From contig NC_030858.1 in NCBI RefSeq assembly GCF_000208745.1, positions 27,586,691 through 27,650,690 on the forward strand: 64,000 nucleotides of DNA, given 5' to 3'. The notes under the pieces are model-generated. The model ran no database searches and was not told the origin of the DNA. It saw only the letters and a list, made by a program, of their open reading frames with translations. Shown here in pieces: positions 6,422-39,480 of the stretch (position 1 is the stretch's first letter; each line of letters begins with the position of its first letter). This stretch comes from Theobroma cacao. Lineage: Eukaryota; Streptophyta; Magnoliopsida; Malvales; Malvaceae. A program made the position numbers and the translations under genes.

Positions 6422-7867
6422 TTAGGACACATATATAATATCATATTCAGACAACAACACTTGCCATTTTGCCACTCTACCTGATAAGGATAGTTTCTCG
6501 AAGATGTATTTAATAGGATCCAACTTCGTAATGAGCCAAGTGGTATGATATAGCATGTACTGCTTGAGTCGATGCGCCGTCCATGCTAAAGCACAACACA
6601 TCTTTTCCAATGAGGAATACTTGGACTTGTACTCAGTGAACTTTTTACTCAAGTAGTAAACTGCCCTTTCTTTCTTACCAGTTTCATCATGTTGTCCCAA
6701 CACACATCCCATGGATCCTTCATTTACTATTAGGTACAAAAAGAGGGGTCTTTCGGCCACAAGTGGTACCAATACTGACGGACTCAACTGATATTCTTTA
6801 ACCTTGTCAAAAACAACTTGGCACTCATCGTTCCATGCCCCAGGATTATGTTTGTGAAGAAGCTTGAAGATTGGGTCACATTTGAGTGTGAGTTTTGATA
6901 TGAACCAGGCTATATAATTCAACCTTCCCAAGAATCCTTTAACTTTTTTCTGCGTTTTGGGAGGAGGCAAATCACGGATTGCTTGAACCTTATCCGGGTC
7001 AACTTCTATTCCTCTTTCACTGACGATGAAACCAAGTAACTTTCCTAAAGTGACTCCAAAAGTGCACTTTACCGGATTTAATCTGAGCTGAAACTTCCGA
7101 AACCTCTTAAATAACCTTTCAAGATTGGTTGCACGGTCCTCTGTTTTGCGAGCTTTTACAATCATATCATCCACATACACCTCAACCTCTCTATGCATCA
7201 TGTCATGGAAAAAAGTCACCATGGCTCGTTGATAAGTTGTCCCAGCATTCTTCAATCTAAATGGCATTACCTTATAACAAAAGGTCCCCCACATAGTTAT
7301 GAAGGTAGTTTTTTCTTTGTCCTCTGGTGCCATCTTAATTTGGTTATATCTTGAAAAACCATCCATAAAGGAAAACATGGAATGACGAGCAATATTGTTA
7401 ACGAGGGTGTCGATGTGGGGCAAAGGAAAATTATCTTTTGGGCTAACTCTATTTAAATCTAGATAGTCCACACACATTCTTACTTTTCCATCTTTCTTAG
7501 GCACTGGGACAATATTTGCAACCCATTTGGGGTACTTAGCTACTTCCAAGAATCCTGCATCGAATTACTTTTTCACCTCTTCCTTAATTTTCAACAGCAT
7601 TTCAGGTTTCATCCTTCTCAACTTTTGCTTAATTGGTTTGCATTTAGGTTTCAAAGGTAGTTTATGGGCTACAATGTTTGTATTGAGTCCTAGCATATCT
7701 TGATAAGACCATGCAAACACATATTCATATTCATGAAGTAGCTTTATTAGTTTTTCTTTTTCAATTTGCACCAACGTCGTACCAATTTTAACTTCTTTCT
7801 TATTATCTTCATTTCCCAAATTAATCGTTTCAAGTCTCTTGATGTGGGACAATTTGTCTCCCCTCAT
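6422..7867 (-). pseudogene. Ogre reverse transcriptase with adjoining RNase H
   Basis: 7867-7565 encodes the N-terminal approach to the polymerase (YEYVFAWSYQDMLGL). After a short break, 7549-6422 is open for 375 codons with the polymerase blocks VPVPKKDGKVRMCVDYLDLN, FMDGFSRYNQI and the catalytic YVDDM, then a Ty3-type RNase H region (FLYLIVNEGSMGCVLGQHDE, RAVYYLSKKFTEYKSKYSS). The catalytic YVDD is intact and this is the best preserved coding block of the element. It lacks a continuous link to the protease and integrase. Confidence 0.93.
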
Positions 7868-8739: not shown

Positions 8740-9693
8740 TCATTCTCCAACATATGTGGTGTTAACAAACTCGAAAGATCGAAAGGAACATTCAGGCACT
8801 TCTTCCGTCGCTTCCACGTATGGAGTATCCGCTAGCTTGCTTATGAGTAAGTCCTCTTCCCCGTTAACAAATACAATCTTCCCATCCATGATGAACTTGA
8901 CTTTTTGGTGAAGCGATGAAGGTATGGCCCCAGCCAAGTGGATCCAAGGTCTTCCCAACAAATAATTGTATGAATAAGCGATATCCATAACTTGGAATTC
9001 AGTGGTAAAGGTACACGAGCTGATTTCTATCAGTATCTCTATGTTCTCTACTACTTCTCTCCTCGTCCCATCAAAGGCTCTCACAATCATCTGGCTCTTT
9101 CTCATGTAAGACATGTCGATGGGTAAGTGGGCCAAGGTCCTCATGGGCATCACATTCAGGGACGATCTATTATCAAGCAACACTTTTGCGACGGTACAGC
9201 CTTTACACTTGGTAGTGATATGCAAGGCTTTGTAGTTTCCCCTACCTCCAAAAAGGATTTCTTCATCGCTAAAGGATATTATGTTACCCACTGAAATGTT
9301 CCTAATGATGTAGTCCAAATTTTCAACTGAAATGTCATGATCCACATATGCTTGGTTCAGAATCCTCATCAAAGAGTTCCTATGTGATTCTGAGCTGAGG
9401 AGCAAAGATAGTAGTGAAATATGAGCAAACAACCTGTTCAATTGCTCAACCACATTGTACTCACTATGTTTAATGAACTTGAAAAACTCGACAGCTTTTT
9501 TTTCCGTCACAGCCCCCTTTGAGCCATCTGTCGATTCTTGAGAATGCACTTTTTCTTCTCTCAAATTTTGTTCTTTTTCTTGTCCTTTCTCATTTTTGAG
9601 ATTCTCCAATGCCTCCGGTGTATAGCAACGTCCGCTGCTGGTAATCCCCCCAACATCAGTTATATTTGCAACATTATCTTGAGATTCGACCAT
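8740..9693 (-). pseudogene. Ogre retropepsin-like aspartic protease region
   Basis: An open stretch of 317 codons. An N-terminal linker (KKAVEFFKFIKHSEYNVVEQL) leads to a retropepsin-like core with VAKVLLDNRSSLNVMPMRTL, then YNYLLGRPWIHLAGAIPSSL. The catalytic motif is normally D-[NST]-G-[AS], and here the glycine is replaced by arginine (DNRSS), so proteolysis is probably lost although the frame stays open. Its place between gag and reverse transcriptase is standard. Confidence 0.88.
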
Positions 9694-28230: not shown

Positions 28231-28500
28231 TTAAGCGACGGTGTTCCCAAGCTTCGACAGGAAAGGATGAGCATCAAAGAAACCGAATATGCGAAACAGA
28301 AAGAACATGCTCGGAGTAAACGAGGAATCTCGAATATTAACAACAGTGAGATTTGTCGTCTTCTTGATGGAGGCTACAGGAATCTCTCCGTCTTTAAATT
28401 CGACTGTGATCTCAGCAGATTTCATGTATGGAGATACGGCGTCTTCAGCTTCTTTGACGCTTTCTATAATTCTTATTCTTTTCTCCACTTGTTTCGCCAT
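28231..28500 (-). CDS. Possible small gene of unknown function, 89 residues
   Basis: A single open frame starting ATGGCG at 28500. The protein begins MAKQVEKRIRIIESVKEAED, a charged helical head, then has a beta-prone middle (SAEITVEFKDGEIPVASI) and a hydrophobic aromatic tail (PSMFFLFRIFGFFDAHPF) that could be membrane-associated. I do not recognise the family. Reasons to keep it: it lies outside the transposons, has a sensible amino-acid composition and lies head to head with the multidomain gene at 29581. Longer plus-strand frames overlap it (28219-28605), but their serine/phenylalanine-rich translations look like antisense shadows. Confidence 0.42.
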   Translation of the reverse strand: MAKQVEKRIRIIESVKEAEDAVSPYMKSAEITVEFKDGEIPVASIKKTTNLTVVNIRDSSFTPSMFFLFRIFGFFDAHPFLSKLGNTVA

Positions 28501-29580
28501 TTGGTCTCAGACTCTTTTGCCAACTTCAGCTCTAAGGTTAGATCCTTGCTGCTTCTAAACTTATTACCGCCTAGTGTCATATATTCATTTGTTGTTAGTT
28601 TCTGATTGAAACCTATATAATACATTTACTGAAGAACCAATGTGTTTGTTTTTGTTGGTGGGGTAGAATATATGTTCTTAAATTTGAGTTTGGAAAGAAA
28701 ATGGAAGCGAAGGGTATAAGAAAGAAGAATGTAATATGCTTTGTGTTGGTAGGACGTCTACAAGGTTTGATTTTTTAGATTGTGGTTGTGGGGGTCATGT
28801 CATGGCATAACAGGGAGTGGTTCATACTGTGTTCGGAAATGTTCACGCCGGTGTGGAAAAGACGTCGTACTCTGCATTCTTTATAATTTGTAAGATTTTG
28901 TTTCCATACAAGTCTTTTATCTCACACATGGTTTTTTAGTCTGCCAAGACAGCCTCTTCTAGTTTTGCTATTGTTCTCAGGCTTTTTGCTCCCATTTGCT
29001 TCGTGTTACGTTTGCTGCACTAAGAAAAATGTCTTTCTGCATAGGCAGAAAATTGTGGTGTGACAACCACCATGCCAAACAACTTCAGATTTTTGGTGTT
29101 CAATTGGTTTTATCGAGCACTCTTCTTTTTTATTGCGATTCTTGCAAAACCAGGCTGCAGTATTTATTAAAGTAAATTCATTAATGTTCTAAATAGTTGC
29201 AGCGATGATGAAAGTAGCTAATTACTATGCAGTTTTATTGCATTTTGGATTTTCTTCATGATAAATTTGTATGATGCACATTTCTCCCGTCAGCTTCTTG
29301 CTAGAATTGTTATCTCAACTATATATGTTTGTCCTTCTGTTCATGTGTCGATTTTAGAGGTTATATAAGCCTTCTTTCTTAACCAGAATAGACAAGAAGA
29401 TGCATAAGAGCATCCTTTTTGCACCCTCAAGTTCCATTTTTAAATTCAGGACTTTATTTGATTTATCCTTGTACTGTGGTTCTCTGCAGAAACTGGAAAT
29501 TAACAATGTACGGAAGTTGGACAAGATTTTTTTCTTGAGTTCAACAGTCACTGCTGGTAGGAGGTCTAAACTTGTCAAAA
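28501..29580. promoter_or_regulatory. Putative divergent promoter region and 5' leader
   Basis: About 1.08 kb without convincing coding sequence between the start of the small minus-strand frame and the start of the multidomain gene. It must hold the promoter and 5' untranslated region of the latter, perhaps with a leader intron. I could not fix a TATA box. Confidence 0.4.
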
Positions 29581-31306
29581 ATGGACCAAGGAAAATCAAT
29601 AGAAGATCAATTCTCCAAGTTGCATCCATGCCTCCCTACAAACACAAGTATTGGGATCATAGGGGCTGGTCCTAGTGGCATATCTGCTGCCTATGCGCTA
29701 ATCAAGCTTGGTTATAATAATGTAACCATATTAGAGAAGTATCATACAGTAGGTGGAATGTGTGAATCAGTTGAAATACAAGGTACTAAAATGAGTTTCT
29801 TCTTATTATTATTTAAATTTAATGCTCTGTATGTTAACTACTTGTGCCATATGTCATCATGCAGGAAAGATCTATGATTTAGGTGGCCAAGTTCTTGCTG
29901 CAAACAGCGCACCAGTCATCTTTCACTTGGCAAAAGAGATTGGGTCTGAACTCGAAGAAATGGACTCCCACAAGCTTGCCCATATAGACAGTTCTACAGG
30001 GAAGTATCAGGATATTAAAGTTGCGGATGATTATGTGTCCATGATCTCACTAACATTAGAACTTCAGGTTAGTTGCTACTTTCATTGTTTCCAGACTATT
30101 AAGTCGGGAGTTAGTTTAAGAATCCATTTTACTTTTCACAGGATAAAGCAAAGGCTTCGAATCGAATTGGTGTCAATGCTGTGAGCGACTTAGCTGCAGA
30201 CTTAACCCCAACCTATCTCGAGGGTCATGGATTTAAATCTGTTCCAAAATCTGTAGCTTATGGATACACTGCTTCTGGTTATGGATTCGTTCAAGACATG
30301 CCTTATGCCTACGTCCACGAGTTCACAAGAACTTCAATGGCTGGAAAAATACGACGTTTTAAAGGTGGATACACAAGTTTTTGGGAGAAGATCAGTAAGT
30401 CTCTTCCAGTGAAAGTCATTTGTAACGCTGAAGTATTGGCAGTGAGACGAAATGCTCTTGGTGTCAGTATTGATGTTAAAAACGTTAATGGGGATTCTGA
30501 AGTTATGGAGTTCGATAAGTTGATCGTTTCAGGAGCCTTTCCTTTCAAGAATGGGAAAACATATAGATCACCACTTTCACATCCTGCAGGTTCGTCAACT
30601 TCTGTAAGCCTAGCTTCTTTTTCTTCTTTTCCTCCTTTCTCTTTTTTTCTCTTCTGCCCTGCCCACAAGAAGCTCAACCGAGTGTTTTTGCACAGAGAAT
30701 GAAACTGGAGTAATGGATTTGAATGATCTTGAAAAGGAGCTGTTCAGTAAAGTAATGACAATTGACTACTACACCACTGCCTTGAAAATAAAAGGGCTAG
30801 AAGATATGCCTGTTGGTTTTTATTACTTTGGCGAATATATGGACGATCCCGCAACAATTGGACAACCTGTTGCAATGCAGAGATTTTTCGCTGATGCTGA
30901 CATTTTCTTGTTCTGGTCATATGGCAACTCCCTTAATATACGAGGAGCAACTGTCTGTGAGCTTGCAATAAAGGCAGTTGAAACCATGGGAGGAGAAGTT
31001 GAGCAGGTGGTTCTACAACGACGATTTAAGTATTTCCCTCACGTTTCTAGTCAAGGTATGCTAAAGCAGCTGCTGCTAGACCATTGAACTATGCCAGATG
31101 GATGCTGATATTTTAATTTTACTACAGATATGAAGAATGGATTTTACGAGCGCATAGAGTCTGAACTTCAAGGTAAAAGGAATACTTACTACGTTGGTGG
31201 GCTTACGGCATTTGAGCTTACAGAGAGGAATTCTTCTTATGCAATGGCCCTAGTCTGCAAGCACTTTGCCAATAACAATTCTCCGCCAGTGCTTCCATAT
31301 GTTAAG
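29581..31306 (+). other. Module 1: FAD-dependent oxidoreductase (exons 1-5)
   Basis: Encodes residues 1-464. The Rossmann fingerprint GIIGAGPSGISAAYAL, with acidic E52 ending the second strand, is the dinucleotide-binding site of amine-oxidase-like flavoproteins. FKGGYTSFWEKISKSL near residue 260 resembles the second FAD-contact region. It carries the short introns of a normal plant gene, whereas the following modules are coded in two very long exons. Confidence 0.85.
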
Positions 31307-34300
31307 GTAATATACATAATTACATGCTTAAGGCGATCGATTTTTGACTGTGAAATTTATGTTCCGAATTGTTTGCTTAAAATCAAAGATCCAAACCAGA
31401 ACTTGACTTATAATGTGATTTTTGCAGAGTTTATTTCCATTAAAATCAGATTGTGGGAATAGAAATCCCAAAGAATTAGGTGAAGACCCAGGAGTGCAAT
31501 TTCCTGATCTGTCTACACTAGATGGCTATTTGAAGCACTGGGGAACTCATGAAGTTATTCAAAGCAAAACACTTTATACGTGGATTAACGAGGAAGGTGC
31601 AGCGTTCGGCCAAAGGACTTATGCAGAACTTCATGCTAATGCTTTCTCCATCGCTCACAAGATCTTGACAAGCAGAAAACCAGCCATCAAGCCCGGTGAC
31701 AGGGTTCTATTAGTCTATGTTCCAGGTCTGGACTTCATTGATGCATTTTTTGGTTGCTTAAGAGCAAAGGTGCTACCAGTTCCAGTTCTTCCTCCAGATC
31801 CTCTACAAAGAGGCGGACAAGCACTTTTAAAGATTGAAAATATTGCCAAATCATGTGGCGCAGTGGCAATTTTATCAACTATTGTCTATCACTCAGCAGT
31901 TCGGGCTGGTATGGTGAAGAATCTACTCTCATTGACTGGAAAGAATGGAAAATCATCAGCTAACTGGCCTAATCTTCCTTGGTTGCACACGGATTCATGG
32001 ATCAAGAACTTCAAGAAAGTACTTCTCAATGACATAGCTGATCAACCCGAACCTCAGCCAAATGACATATGCTTTTTGCAATTTACATCTGGGTCAACTG
32101 GTGATGCCAAAGGGGTCATGATTACTCACAGCGGGCTTATTCATAATGTGAAGTTGATGCGAAAGATATACAAGAGCACCTCAAAGACTGTATTAGTCAG
32201 TTGGCTTCCTCAATACCATGACATGGGCCTCATTGGGGGACTTTTTACTGCAATGGTTAGTGGTGGCTCGGCAATACTGTTTTCCCCAATGACGTTCATC
32301 AGAAACCCCCTCATGTGGCTTCAGATCATGAGCCAATACCAAGCAACTCACAGTGCTGGCCCCAATTTTGCTTTTGAGCTAGTGGTTCGAAGACTGGAGT
32401 TTGAGGATAAGGTTTGGAACTATGACCTTTCTTCCCTTATTTTCCTCATGGTTGCTGCTGAGCCAGTAAGACAGAGAACTCTGAGAAGATTTGTTGAGCT
32501 CACTCATCCATTTGGCCTTTCTCAAGAGGTGGTGGCTCCTGGCTATGGCTTGGCTGAAAATTGCGTCTTTGTCAGTTGTGCTTATGGAGAAGGGAAGCCC
32601 ATCTTGGTTGATTGGCAGGGAAGAGTTTGTTGTGGTTATGTTGATCCAGATAATCAAGATGTTGAGATAAGAATAGTTGATCCAGAGACTGGTGTAGAGC
32701 TTGAAGAAGTTGGAAAAGAAGGAGAGATATGGATTAGTAGTCCAAGTGCTGGCATTGGTTATTGGGGTAGGGAAGAATATAGCCACCAAACTTTTAGAAA
32801 TGAGCTAAAAAATCGCACTGGAAGAAAATACACTAGAACTGGAGACTTGGGACGAATCATTGATGGAAAATTGTGCATCACCGGAAGAATCAAGGATATA
32901 ATAATTGTAGCAGGAAGGAATATTTACTCAGCAGATGTAGAAAAGACGATTGAGAGCTCATCTGAACTTTTACGGCCTGGTTGTTGTGCTGTCATTGGTG
33001 TTCCAGAGGAAGTCCTATCGGAGAAAGGAATTTCAGTTCCAGATGGTTCTGACAATGTTGGCCTTGTCGTAATTGCAGAAGTTAGAGATGGAAAACCTGT
33101 TGATAAGGACATCATTGAACAAATTAAAACACGTGTTACAGAAGAACACGGTGTTAATGTTGCTGCCATCAAACTGATCAAGCCAAAGACCATCAGTAAA
33201 ACAACATCCGGAAAGATCAAGAGATTTGAATGCCTCAAACAATTTACTGAGGGATCTTTGAACATTGTCCAAGAACCAACCTTTTCAAAGAGAACTTTGG
33301 TCCGATCATTCACTACTGGGACTTGTAAAGAAGGAAGAACACCTCGTCAACTTTTGAGTTCTCCTTTACCAAGTCCAAGATTGAGAAATAAGGACATTGT
33401 AGAATTCCTGAAAGGCCTAATCTCTGAGCTAACCGGGATCCCCACCAAGAATATTTCTGCTACTGAAAGCCTTGCCTCGTATGGAATTGATTCAATTGGT
33501 GTTGTCAGAGCAGCTCAAAAGCTTTCAGATTATCTAGGCGTGCCAGTTGGAGCAGTAGATATCTTCACTGCAACCTGCATTGTGGACTTGGCAAACTTCT
33601 CAGAGAATCTCATAGCAAAGTCTAAACCTGAACTTATGACAACTTCATCCCTTCTTCCTGAACCTGATCTCGATTCTGATGAGTATCTGGTGGAAGTATC
33701 GATATACCGCCAAGTGGGTTTCTGGTGTCTACAATTTCTGGCTCTAATCGTCGTGTCTATCATGTTGAGTGTGCCTGCATATTTATCAGTTTCTGCATTC
33801 ATGACTTTCACCTCCGTGAGCCACACAACAACAGGCGGAATACACTGGTCGACCTATTTGATATATTTGGCCATTGCACCACTTGTTTGGATCCTCTGCA
33901 TGGCTTTAACTTGCGTATGCATTGCTGTCTTTGGAAATCCATTCTTGAGACCAAACTATGCACTCAGTCATGACATTTCCATTTGGTCAATTGATTTTGT
34001 TAAGTGGTGGGCACTTTACAAGGTCCAACAAATATCTTCAAAAGTATTTGCAGAGCATTTGAGAGGAACGGTATTCTTAAATTACTGGTTTGAGATGCTT
34101 GGAGCAAGAATTGGGTCGTCGGTTTTGCTAGATACTGTAGACATTACGGACCCATCTTTAGTTTCAATTGGAGATGGAGCTGTGGTTGCAGAAGGGGCAC
34201 TAATTCAAAGCCATGAGGTGAAGAATGGAATACTAAGCTTCCACTCCATTAGAATTGGCCGAAATTCAACAATTGGGCCATATACAGTGATCCAAAAGGG

Positions 34301-37300
34301 AAGTGTATTGGGAGTAGGAGCTGAAATATTGCCCCTACAGAAGAGTGAAGGAGGCACACCCATAATCAGATCAGCCAAGGCTAACAATGCCCAAAAAGTA
34401 AGTACTTAGCACTTTCAAATCTCCAGGTTTTATGGTTCAAAAGTAGCAAATAACATAGCTGATCAAGACATGTATAAAGTCACCATAACTGCAAAGAAAA
34501 ATTATTGCATTAACTAAGCAGTTAGGATTTCTTTCATTTGATTCTAGTTTTAAGGTTGCAACTTTCATCATTGATAATATGAATATGGCGCAATTGTGTT
34601 TCTTAATAAATATTTATATAAGAAATATAGTATCTTGCACATATCTTTTGCTATTACACATGCTACTTCCTCAAAGGCAACATGATCTTCCCGAAGTTTC
34701 TTAAATCACTAAAACTAAACCGGCATGCACACAAAGAAGGGAGAACTGGAGATGGGTGCTTGAAGGGATGGGTGGAAAAAATTGGACTAGCTTAAATCTT
34801 AGACTCAACACATAGAGCTTGGACAAAGTGTCCGCTGTTAGCAAACAACTTTCTACAAACTTAGCATCTTAGTAAACTGATGTAATTAATTGGAATTTCT
34901 TATGGAAGATTTTTTTTTTTTTTTAAGATTCTTATAGAAGATATTGTTAAGTTAATAATGCAATTCTTTGATTACTTGAATAATAAAAGTTAGGGCCTTT
35001 AGTCTCAAATACAATCCGTACTAATGATCAAGCTTATAGTGCTTAATTCTACTAGTATCATTAAGAAAATGTCATATAGGATTTCATGTATATGAACTCT
35101 TCTCTTTCTTCTTCTCCCTTTCTTTTTAATGAGATAAGTTGGAAATTGATCATTTATTGTCTTTTCTACCATGGTTTCAGAGCACAGTGCTATCAAATGC
35201 TACTCCAAATAAGACCATGTCCCACTTCATGGGCATCTACTTGGTGGGTTTCCTTAGCGGTTTCTCAGCAGCTATTCTCTATTTCCTATGCGTTTGGCTC
35301 TCCAAAACTCCTCCTTCTGCTGAACACTTTGCATTTGTTTGCATATCTGGAGCCTTACATTGGATTCCTTTAACGGTTATTGCATACGTTACCATGTTTG
35401 CTAGCATCACATTGAATCCAGCAAGCTTTGCCATCTCAGTTGCCGTTGCTTACTTAGCTCATGGCATAATACTCAGTTTCCTTACATGCGCTTTAACCCA
35501 TCTTCTTACTGAGAGACAACAGTCAAAGCAATCTCATGTCAAGGTATTCCTTGGACACCGAATTACCATTGCTTGCCACCTCAGATTTGCCAAACTTCTT
35601 TCTGGAACAGAAGCTTTTTGTATGTACTTAAGGCTTTTGGGTGCCAAGGTTGGGCAACATTGTTCAATCAGAGCTATCAATCCAATTTCAGATCCAGAGC
35701 TGGTCAAAATCGGGGATGGTGTTCATCTTGGTGACTTTAGCAGAATCATTACAGGATTCTATACATGCAATGGTTTTATTCGCAAGAAAGTTGAGGTGCA
35801 AGATAATTCAGTTGTCGGGAGTCAAAGCCTAATCCTCCCTGGCTCTTTAGTTGAAAAGGATGTAATTCTTGGTGCACTTTCAGTGGCTCCAGAAAACTCA
35901 GTTCTACAAAGAGGTGGTGTTTATGTTGGATCTCAAACTCCGACCATGGTCAAGAACACCAAGCATGCTTTGGATGACCGGATAGAAGAAATGGACATGA
36001 AATATAAGAAAATAGTAGGAAATCTGGCGGCAAGTTTAGCTTCTACTACTTTGAAGGTTAAATCAAGATATTTTCATCGAATTGGTGTTGGAGGGAATGG
36101 CTATTTGAAAGTATATGATAAGATAGAAGGCTTTCCAGATCACAAGATTTTGCACCCTGGAAAATGCTACGGTGTCGTAGTTAGACATAGCAATAGCTTG
36201 AGTGCTGATGATGATGCAAGAATAGATGCTCGCGGTGCTGCAGTGAGAATACTTGCAGAGAATAACACCCCACTCCTTGACTTAACACTTAAAACTGGCA
36301 AGGCGTTTTATGCTCGCACAATATCGGATTTTGCAACATGGCTTGTGTGTGGGCTTGCTGCAAGAGAAGAGCATGTAAAGCGAGTCCCACATGTCCGTAA
36401 TGCAGTGTGGATGTCCCTTTGCCAAGCTAACTCATATACAGAGTTGCATTATTACTCAAATTTTGTTAGGCTTCTTCGATTCGCAGATGGAGAGGAATCG
36501 TATGTGAAATTCAAGTTGAGACCTTATGATGAAAGTATCAGTGAGGATGCTGGGAAGGTGGAACCTACTGGGATTCTCCCACCAGAAACAGGTGCCATTC
36601 CAAGGGATGATAAAGATACCCGCCCCCTACTTTTCCTGGCTGAAGATTTCCAGCACCGCATAAGTTCTGGTGGTGTTCGCTACATCTTCCAATTACAAGT
36701 CCGGCCAGTTCCACAAGATGAAGCCACACGTGACATTGCACTTGACTGCACTAAACCATGGGATGAGACTGAGTTCCCTTATATCAATGTTGGTGAGATT
36801 TATATTGAACAAAATCTCACCAAGGAAGAAGCAGAAGCACTAGAGTTTAATCCTTTTCTCAGATGCCATGAGGTTGATGTCATCCGGGCTTCAACATCCT
36901 CTCAGAGTGCTTCTATTGATCATGGTCGCTCTCTTATCTATGAGATTTGCCAACGCTTGCGAAATAAGGAACCACTTCCGGAGGCCTGGAAGATCTTTCT
37001 TGAGCAATCTGATGTAAAAGTAGACCTTTCAGGCTGTCCAATGGCAGCAGCATTGGAGAAAAAAGAAACAGGGAAAGTGACCTTGGAAAGAACGTGGTAT
37101 CAAACCTCGTGGGCAATTTTTGCTCAACCATTACTACAAACTGTGCTCCCTTATTTCCTCTTGGGATTAGCAGTTTTTGCACCTTTAAGTTCTGTTCTTT
37201 ACATGAAGGAGTCAAAGAAATTCCCCCTACATTGGTTGCTTCCGTTGCTTTGGGTTTCTTCCGGACTTATAGCTGCATTAACTTGTGTTGTGGCCAAATG

Positions 37301-37751
37301 GATTCTTGTGGGAAAGAAGAATGAAGGTGAAACAGTACAGATTTGGAGCAAAGGGGTCTTCATGGACACCATCTGGCAAGCTTTTAGAACACTAGTGGGG
37401 GAATATTTCATGGAAATGACTAGTGGATCTATTTTGTTCGTGCTATGGATGAAGTTAATGGGTTCAGATATAGAACTGGACCAAGGGGTGTATGTGGATA
37501 GCATGGGAGCTTCACTGAATCCTGAAATGGTGGAGATTGAGAGAGGAGGATGTGTAGGAAGGGAAGCTCACTTGTTTGGACACATATATGAAGGAGAAGG
37601 CGGGAAAGTTAAGTTTGGGAAAATCAGAATTGGAGAAGGCGGGTTTATAGGAAGTCGAGCAGTGGTCATGCCTGGGGTAAGGGTGGAGAGTGGAGGGAGT
37701 CTATGTTCTCTTTCCCTTGCCATGAAAGAAGAGATCATTAAGTCAAGGTAA
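29581..37751 (+). CDS. Multidomain acyl-processing enzyme: FAD oxidoreductase, fatty-acyl-AMP ligase, carrier domain, membrane beta-helix modules, catalase-like domain
   Basis: Seven exons: 29581-29782, 29865-30067, 30142-30589, 30696-31055, 31128-31306, 31428-34397, 35181-37751. All introns are GT-AG and all phases agree, giving 2,310 residues. Order of parts: FAD/NAD-binding oxidoreductase (1-464, GAGPSG at 28-33); adenylating fatty-acyl-AMP ligase (about 495-1100, TSGSTGDAKG at 684-693, TGD at 935-937); carrier domain with phosphopantetheine serine 1153 (GIDSIG); membrane pair and left-handed beta-helix (1228-1450); second set (1470-1720); catalase-like region (about 1745-2050); third membrane pair and beta-helix (2100-2310). 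The start ATG has A at -3 and G at +4. The membrane/beta-helix part resembles the C-terminal region of bacterial non-ribosomal-peptide-synthetase-like enzymes. I infer that it loads an acyl chain as acyl-AMP onto its own carrier and modifies it at a membrane. Substrate and product are unknown. No stops or frameshifts, so it is probably functional. Confidence 0.93.
31428..33610 (+). other. Module 2: fatty-acyl-AMP ligase and carrier domain (exon 6)
   Basis: The adenylation domain has SWLPQYHDMGLIGGLF and VAPGYGLAENCVFVSCAYG, which fit the fatty-acyl-AMP-ligase branch rather than acyl-CoA synthetases. The final part has ITGRIKDIIIVAGRNIYSAD and the C-terminal lysine region (SKTTSGKIKRF). The carrier domain follows at residues 1115-1190 with GIDSIGVVRAAQKL. 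A ligase fused to its own carrier is a polyketide/lipopeptide starter arrangement. Confidence 0.9.
33700..36020 (+). other. Modules 3-4: membrane segments with two left-handed beta-helix domains
   Basis: Hydrophobic segments at residues 1228-1256 and 1271-1300 precede a hexapeptide-repeat domain (LVSIGDGAVVAEGALI, RIGRNSTIGPYTVI). A three-segment membrane region at 1471-1562 precedes a second one (LVKIGDGVHLGDFSRI, NSVVGSQSLILPGSLV). Such domains often carry acyltransferase activity, but a catalytic histidine was not established here. An intron (34398-35180) separates the two sets. Confidence 0.82.
36050..36990 (+). other. Module 5: catalase / allene-oxide-synthase-like heme domain
   Basis: RYFHRIGVGGNGYLKVYD places H1753 at the distal-histidine position of the catalase fold. 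ARIDARGAAVRIL matches the catalase block with RG-A-V. DHGRSLIYEI offers R2037-x3-Y2041, the spacing of the arginine and heme-ligand tyrosine of catalases and of coral allene oxide synthase. The usual distal asparagine position appears to be lysine (LTLKTGKAF). Assignment is by motif only. Confidence 0.65.
37090..37751 (+). other. Module 6: terminal membrane pair and third beta-helix domain
   Basis: Hydrophobic segments at residues 2101-2130 and 2138-2166, then a hexapeptide-like repeat region to the C-terminus (FGKIRIGEGGFIGSRAVVMP). This is the third occurrence of the membrane-then-beta-helix pattern in one protein. Confidence 0.78.
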
Positions 37752-38268: not shown

Positions 38269-38655
38269 TTATAAATTTTACTTTTTGATAAATTTAACAC
38301 ATTATAAATTAAATCAGAAATTTTAATGGAGAAAGAAAATTTGAGAATGAAAAAGTGAAGTTAAAACAACACGCAAGTATCTAAACCAATAAAAAAAAAA
38401 TGAAATGTGGATCCCATAACTACTATTATAGCACATACAAAGTACCATTTCTTACCCACTCATAATCAATGAACATGGTCTCTTTTAAACCACCACATTT
38501 TCTATATAAACTTGTAACACTAAAAACGGTACCGCATGGGTTAATGAATCACATAACCCACTTATACGTGATTATCTCTCTTCTTGCAACAAGGGACCGC
38601 CTGCGAACAACAATGAAAAACATCTGAATGTCTAGACAGAGTTCATTTTTTAACA
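38269..38655 (-). repeat. Left LTR (3' LTR) of copia element 2
   Basis: 387 bp aligning to 42688-43168, but with an internal deletion of about 95 bp near 38390 and a TG-to-TT change at its outer end. It ends TTTTTAACA. Confidence 0.85.
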
Positions 38656-39480
38656 CACCACCTTGAGTTCTGTCTTGCACAAACCCAACTTTGATCTGAA
38701 AGTAAGAAATTTATCTTTGCCTAATCCTTTAATGCAGATATCTGCAACCTGTTCATCTGTATTGCAATATTTTACACTGATTTCTTCATTCTTTATAGCA
38801 TCTCTCATTGCATGATATCTGACTTTGATATGCTTGGTACGACCACGTTGTACTGCGTTCTTGGCAATGGCTGTTGCGAATTGGTTGTCAAGCCAAATTG
38901 TTGTCTCACAAACTTGTTTAAAGCTCAAGTAATTTAGAATTTTTCTTAGCCAAAGTGCAGGTTGGCAATAGAGGCAACAACCACATATTCGGCTTCAACA
39001 AAAGATTGAGCCATTGTTTCCTGTTTTTTTGAATTCCATGCAAATACAGCACTTCCAAGCAAAAAACAAAAACTTGTGGTGTTGTTGGCATCAAATGAAC
39101 AATTGACCTAGTCACTATCACAAAATCTCATAAGTTCTCCACTTTTTTTTATGGATATACTTGAGTCCACATTTTATAGTTCCTTTGATGTATCGTAGGA
39201 CTCATTTTGCTACCATCATATGAGTCTTAGAAGGATTTTGCATGTATCTTAACAAAACACTTGTTGCATGCATTATGTCAAATCTAGATGTTGTTAAATA
39301 TAGTAGACAACCCACCAAACTTCTATACGAAGACATGTTTGTAGCTGGAGCATCATCTTCTCTATACAGTTTATTTTCAAAAGCCATAGGGGTCTCAACT
39401 AGTTTACATAGTAAACCTTTTGAGAAGTTTCTAAGCATATTTGCTTTGGTGAAGACAAATATATTAAGGTTCTTTTATGA
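38650..39480 (-). pseudogene. Copia 2 reverse transcriptase end and RNase H
   Basis: 39438-39202 has YRSLVGCLLYLTTSRFDIMH, the polymerase thumb. 39121-38918 and 38928-38650 are RNase H with TTIWLDNQFATAIAKNAV, RGRTKHIKVRYHAMRDAI and EQVADICIKGLGKDKFL. There are frame breaks between the pieces. Confidence 0.87.

Follow-up and report, generated by a model that had tools for sequence, protein, structure and literature searches.

Pls/PosA synthetases are built from a ligase, a carrier and three membrane/beta-helix units, and they activate amino acids. In the available part of PMC10522769, the membrane/beta-helix core of polylysine synthetase is described as required for polymer formation, and the PosA core, for which no structure is known, has been given a model with three pairs of membrane helices and three left-handed beta-helices. 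Bacterial fatty-acyl-AMP ligases (FAALs) feed polyketide or peptide synthases, and a plant FAAL flanked by HemY and catalase domains was reported in eLife in 2021, its function being called unknown by the authors (PMC8460268, available portion). We analysed a window of 64,000 nucleotides from Theobroma cacao (NCBI RefSeq assembly GCF_000208745.1, contig NC_030858.1, positions 27,586,691 to 27,650,690, forward strand), which carries at 29581..37751 (+) a gene of seven exons coding for 2,310 residues. The encoded chain has the ligase, carrier and three membrane/beta-helix units of the Pls/PosA synthetases; its named domains and their order are those of the plant FAAL in the accessible text of PMC8460268, the likeness being one of domain names and order. 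On the basis of sequence comparisons, we give roughly even credence to the product being a self-loading fatty-acyl enzyme, predicted to be membrane-seated, that activates, redox-modifies and transfers an acyl group.

The architecture is already known. Beyond what the available text of PMC8460268 holds, we place one flank nearest to the structure 2b9w and the other nearest to coral allene oxide synthase, recognize the Pls-type core and describe a plant-specific heme pocket. An earlier note on this DNA, made from the letters alone, saw an architecture without an assigned product in plants. None was found in open-access PubMed Central, but the novelty was overstated, the domain order having been reported in 2021.

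The coding region was delimited by splice-joining the exons and by a full-length homologue match. Exons 1–5 lie at 29581-29782, 29865-30067, 30142-30589, 30696-31055 and 31128-31306, and exons 6 and 7 at 31428-34397 and 35181-37751, all on the + strand. Intron 6 (34398..35180, +) interrupts the Pls-type core, after beta-helix 1 and before the second membrane part. All six introns have GT..AG borders (6/6), and the joined coding sequence of 6,933 nt gives 2,310 residues and a stop, with no internal stops, in agreement with the undisrupted, in-phase joining of seven exons described in the earlier note. The T. cacao protein P0121 (2,438 aa) covers the whole length, with 11 differences in 2,305 residues. 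A full-protein database search returned 370 matches, the best 120 of which have at least 64% identity; among these 120, 114 are 2,200-2,450 aa long and collinear with the whole chain, and every organism named is a flowering plant. Conservation is given below as counts over the 114 aligned homologues of this length, or over 115 rows with cacao included. The full-length match and the collinear homologues also bear out the single chain proposed earlier, and the comparisons indicate one intact gene that is widespread across flowering plants. Partial database models do exist (e.g. 375-450 aa), as would be expected if the region held more than one gene or a wrongly joined model; this is highly improbable, because the splice sites are clean and in phase and because the cacao protein and 113 further near-full-length database homologues are collinear with the chain.

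P0121 has 128 additional N-terminal residues relative to the 2,310-residue chain, and the best 120 of the 370 matches include 14 longer than 2,345 aa and 98 of 2,250-2,345 aa. Given this extension and this spread of lengths, 29581 is only the putative 5' end of the gene. The additional first exon of P0121 lies at 28267-28536 (+), and an antisense open frame with no Pfam match is present at 28234-28500 (-); the additional N-terminus may be a mis-modelled 5' end. No names of Brassicales or Caryophyllales were spotted in two match listings of 120 rows each, the second being the best 120 of 370, and loss of the gene in these groups is possible.

The FAAL domain was located in exon 6 by profile and structure matches (31476..33275, +) and the carrier (phosphopantetheine) domain by the PP-binding profile (33405..33599, +). 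In the profile search, the AMP-binding profile matches at 9e-59 and the PP-binding profile at 1.5e-12. The FAAL family model matches at 3e-92, the NRPS/PKS subfamily model being marginally better, and the top PDB matches of the ligase are FAAL structures. The catalytic Lys1060 and the carrier Ser1153 (codon 33492-33494) are each found in 114/114 homologues. These results uphold the ligase-plus-carrier logic suggested by the earlier note. The available text of PMC8460268 describes W224, M231 and F279 (Escherichia coli FAAL numbers) as bulky residues that reject coenzyme A (CoA). Their equivalents, placed on sequence alone by counting without gaps from the HDM motif, are present in 115/115 rows. 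At the position of the FAAL-specific helix T252-R258, the sequence ends in an invariant P259 and the inner residues are partly variable. The cacao ligase has its sequence class and its CoA-rejecting pocket residues in common with bacterial FAAL loading domains (7r7e, 3kxw and FadD32), whereas the polyketide or peptide synthase partners of the bacterial enzymes have no counterpart domain in the cacao chain.

All three membrane/beta-helix units match the Pls/PosA terminal family TIGR02353 (5e-24, 7e-13 and 1e-17). The last profile repeat is aligned in every unit, and the beta-helix part only in unit 2. With the exons scanned apart, exon 7 scores 127.6 bits and the single units at most 84.7 bits, against a curated cut-off of 423 bits, so that the cacao protein lies far under the family cut-off. 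Hexapep matches exon 7, and its match to exon 6 is below the cut-off. Membrane pair 1 with beta-helix 1 (33735..34334, +) and membrane pair 3 with beta-helix 3 (37131..37739, +) were placed by hydropathy scan, alignment and TIGR02353. The hydropathy scan, which is the sole basis of the membrane segments, gives three segments, not two, ahead of beta-helix 2, and it also flags three stretches within the ligase and carrier. The plant core aligns end to end with three bacterial-looking ligase-carrier-Pls proteins, which differ from the cacao chain in having neither a flavin head nor a heme insertion. In this alignment, the heme domain of the plant protein is inserted after beta-helix 2 and before membrane pair 3, and His2255 of unit 3 (codon 37581-37583) is common to 3/3 of the bacterial-looking proteins and 114/115 plant rows. 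The resemblance of the tail to polylysine synthetase that had been noticed earlier is thus seen in all three units, at scores below the cut-off.

The inserted domain (36021..36998, +) has a catalase fold, with a Catalase profile match of 1.7e-9. Its nearest relative is coral allene oxide synthase (1u5u), at about 23-27% identity, and catalases are more distant; of the catalase-like region named in the earlier note, the fold stands and the nearest kin is replaced. Because the whole exon 7 model was weak (predicted local distance difference test value of 66), the heme domain was folded alone. Equivalents of coral R64, R102, R360, H67 and Y353 are present in cacao. They include Tyr2041 (36939..36941, +), the expected proximal heme ligand, with Arg2037 four residues upstream. 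The heme Tyr, Arg and His are found in 114/114 homologues, and the domain is roughly as constrained as the ligase. The distal side differs: coral allene oxide synthase (1u5u, 3dy5) has Thr and Asn, whereas the alignment gives cacao a plant-specific Phe next to the distal heme His (Phe1752-His1753, 36072..36077, +) and Lys1825 (36291..36293, +) at the site where the distant relatives compared carry the distal Asn. With respect to the distal pair of true catalases (PMC5617202, available part), the His is retained and the Asn is replaced by Lys. In the available text of the same article, coral Asn137 mutants have an altered rate and the same chemistry, which suggests that peroxide rearrangement can still take place with a Lys at the distal Asn position. 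From its sequence, the Phe/Lys pair predicts a chemistry related to, and distinct from, that of the coral enzyme, with little or no catalase activity. The fusion partner also differs, the coral enzyme being fused to a lipoxygenase and the cacao domain to a Pls-type core. In several plants, database models of 375-450 residues contain the heme domain, with the identical Phe and Lys in 8/8 inspected; they represent stand-alone genes or truncated models.

The flavin adenine dinucleotide (FAD) domain comprises residues 21-451 in exons 1–5 (29641..31267, +) and matches the Amino_oxidase profile at 9e-16. The closest solved structure is 2b9w (7e-27, the runner-up being at 1.5e-7), with homology along the domain and 27% identity. 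Under its entry name 'putative aminooxidase', this structure is one that we take to be the linoleate (polyenoic fatty acid) isomerase of Cutibacterium acnes. The flavin oxidoreductase head of the earlier note can thus be sharpened to a 2b9w-like, isomerase-like domain. The glycines of the FAD loop G-x-G-x-x-G are kept in 109-110/114 homologues, the remainder being gaps. The C. acnes isomerase is a stand-alone enzyme, whereas the cacao flavin head is part of a multidomain chain.

The kinship of each domain is established at the sequence level, and a working scheme can be proposed from it. The ligase would convert a fatty acid into acyl-AMP and pass it to the enzyme's own carrier. The flavin head would shift double bonds in the acyl chain or dehydrogenate it, and the heme domain would act on a fatty-acid peroxide, rearranging or reducing it. 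The 2,310-residue chain showed no lipoxygenase domain, so the peroxide would come from ordinary plant lipoxygenases. The Pls-type core would then pass the finished acyl group to an acceptor, forming an ester or amide at the membrane. We infer the substrate to be a polyunsaturated C18 acid or its hydroperoxide, and likewise the order of the steps and the chemistry on the carrier. A more specific version is put forward tentatively, as a serious possibility rather than an expectation: a carrier-tethered membrane oxylipin synthase, in which a new catalase-fold type (Phe-His with Lys) would act on an acyl chain loaded by the enzyme's own CoA-independent ligase and produce a new class of plant lipid. 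Plants handle fatty acids via CoA and plastid carrier proteins, and plant oxylipins such as jasmonate are made by P450 enzymes. If the proposal is true, plants would have a second, parallel fatty-acid route with a ligase of the CoA-rejecting type, its own carrier, a catalase-fold domain of the oxylipin type and a bacterial-type membrane transferase. The heme pocket peculiar to plants and the two fatty-acid-type redox domains around such a ligase make the function testable, and each domain identity points directly to an assay: the heme domain can be offered fatty-acid peroxides and the flavin head polyunsaturated acids, and the ligase can be assayed for acyl-AMP formation.

Several observations weigh against the self-loading fatty-acyl enzyme. 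The distal Thr66 and Asn137 of the coral enzyme, which contact the hydroperoxide, are both replaced in the plant domain, Thr66 by Phe in 114/114 homologues and Asn137 by Lys in 113/114, and the alignment used for the heme model contained coral rows, a possible bias towards the coral match. In the flavin head, Arg88 and Phe193 are presumably the residues of the isomerase that deal with the substrate; two alignments disagree on Arg88, and the position of Phe193 is Met201 in 113/114 plant homologues. The stretch that we take to hold the FAAL-specific insertion is 47 residues long in 110/115 rows; its counterpart in 7r7e has about 15 residues more than the cacao stretch. A scan of bacterial genomes with the flavin alignment gave 115 pattern matches and 52 loci encoding a relative of the flavin head. 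A ligase-like frame is near 6/52 of these, five of the six being weak, so that the bacterial analogy rests on one locus; a Pls-type or heme-domain relative is beside 0/52 (flanks of up to 10 kb, frames of at least 100 residues).

Other functions can be read from the same domains. The core belongs to the Pls/PosA type, and the members of this type studied so far form isopeptide bonds (PMC10522769, available part), and the flavin head lies within the amine-oxidase superfamily; the core might accordingly join the acyl group to an amine, such as an amino acid or a polyamine, with the redox domains acting on the acceptor or product. We consider this unlikely, as the closest kin of both redox domains are fatty-acid enzymes rather than amine oxidases or catalases, and the ligase is of the fatty-acyl class. 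The presence on one chain of a member of that flavin superfamily and a catalase fold with retained heme ligands could also mean that the head oxidises the substrate with oxygen, producing hydrogen peroxide, and the heme domain removes the latter. Such an oxidase with its own clean-up is rather doubtful: peroxide is not scavenged by coral allene oxide synthase, the relative nearest to the heme domain (PMC5617202, available part), catalases are more distant than the coral enzyme and the plant distal pocket carries Phe and Lys.

A non-catalytic, scaffolding or regulatory role for one or both redox domains, leaving the ligase, carrier and transferase as the working enzyme, would account for the replacement of two distal heme residues and for the isomerase residues without a clear match. 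The invariance of the heme Tyr, Arg and His, a constraint about equal to that of the ligase and the retained FAD loop make it improbable.

For the self-loading fatty-acyl enzyme, the origin of the fusion was also considered. Intron 5 coincides with the boundary between the flavin and ligase parts (residue 464), in keeping with a fusion at this point. The earlier note inferred a transferred bacterial block, which is unsupported as a recent event: matches of the ligase exon to plasmids are about 29-34% identical among 20 matches listed of 1,052 records, and plant heme domains form a single group, set apart by a branch of 1.86 changes per site, long branches obscuring the sister group in the tree. 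A bacterial genome scan with the heme-domain alignment gave 180 pattern matches and 0 confirmed relatives, with patterns too strict to show absence, because a protein search found cyanobacterial relatives of the heme domain.

In Calothrix PCC 7103 (L024), the strongest of the six loci with a ligase-like frame, the flavoprotein gene immediately follows polyketide synthase genes and precedes a ligase-acyltransferase fusion, in which a carrier motif was read by eye (Pfam at 1e-5 gives no carrier). This single case offers no more than an analogy for the cacao chain. The order at L024:3178-20143 is polyketide synthase, KR/DH, isomerase-like flavoprotein and ligase-acyltransferase fusion. Further on are a CDP-alcohol transferase, a nucleotidyl transferase, an aminotransferase, a TPP enzyme and a PEP mutase, which look like phosphonate head-group synthesis; this suggests that the cluster product is a phosphonolipid with a remodelled acyl chain.

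A link to phosphate starvation was considered for cacao and found no support: with the motif that we take to be PHR1-type, 14 sites are observed in the window versus 14.7 expected, including a site at 28285 that lies upstream of the gene. The tomato gene Solyc04g080480 ('FadD26-like') is described as a hub gene that has a PHR1-type site in its promoter and is strongly induced in phosphate-starved roots, with a log2 change of 10.23, and its membership of the cacao megaenzyme family is not established by the available part of that text (PMC10441952). In rye, the marker that lies closest to a wax locus is similar to a FadD28-like mRNA of Glycine soja (PMC7593958, available part), and its identity as the cacao megaenzyme gene is likewise not established; by database match, P0182, named FadD28 of G. 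soja, belongs to the cacao megaenzyme family.

Elsewhere in the window, retrotransposon remnants are found at 6425-7549 (-), with reverse transcriptase/RNase H by Pfam, and at 8743-9693 (-), with a gag-like frame read by eye and no Pfam match. At 38653-38928 (-), a frame looks by eye like a copia-type RNase H end, and Pfam gives it only a weak match to DUF1573.
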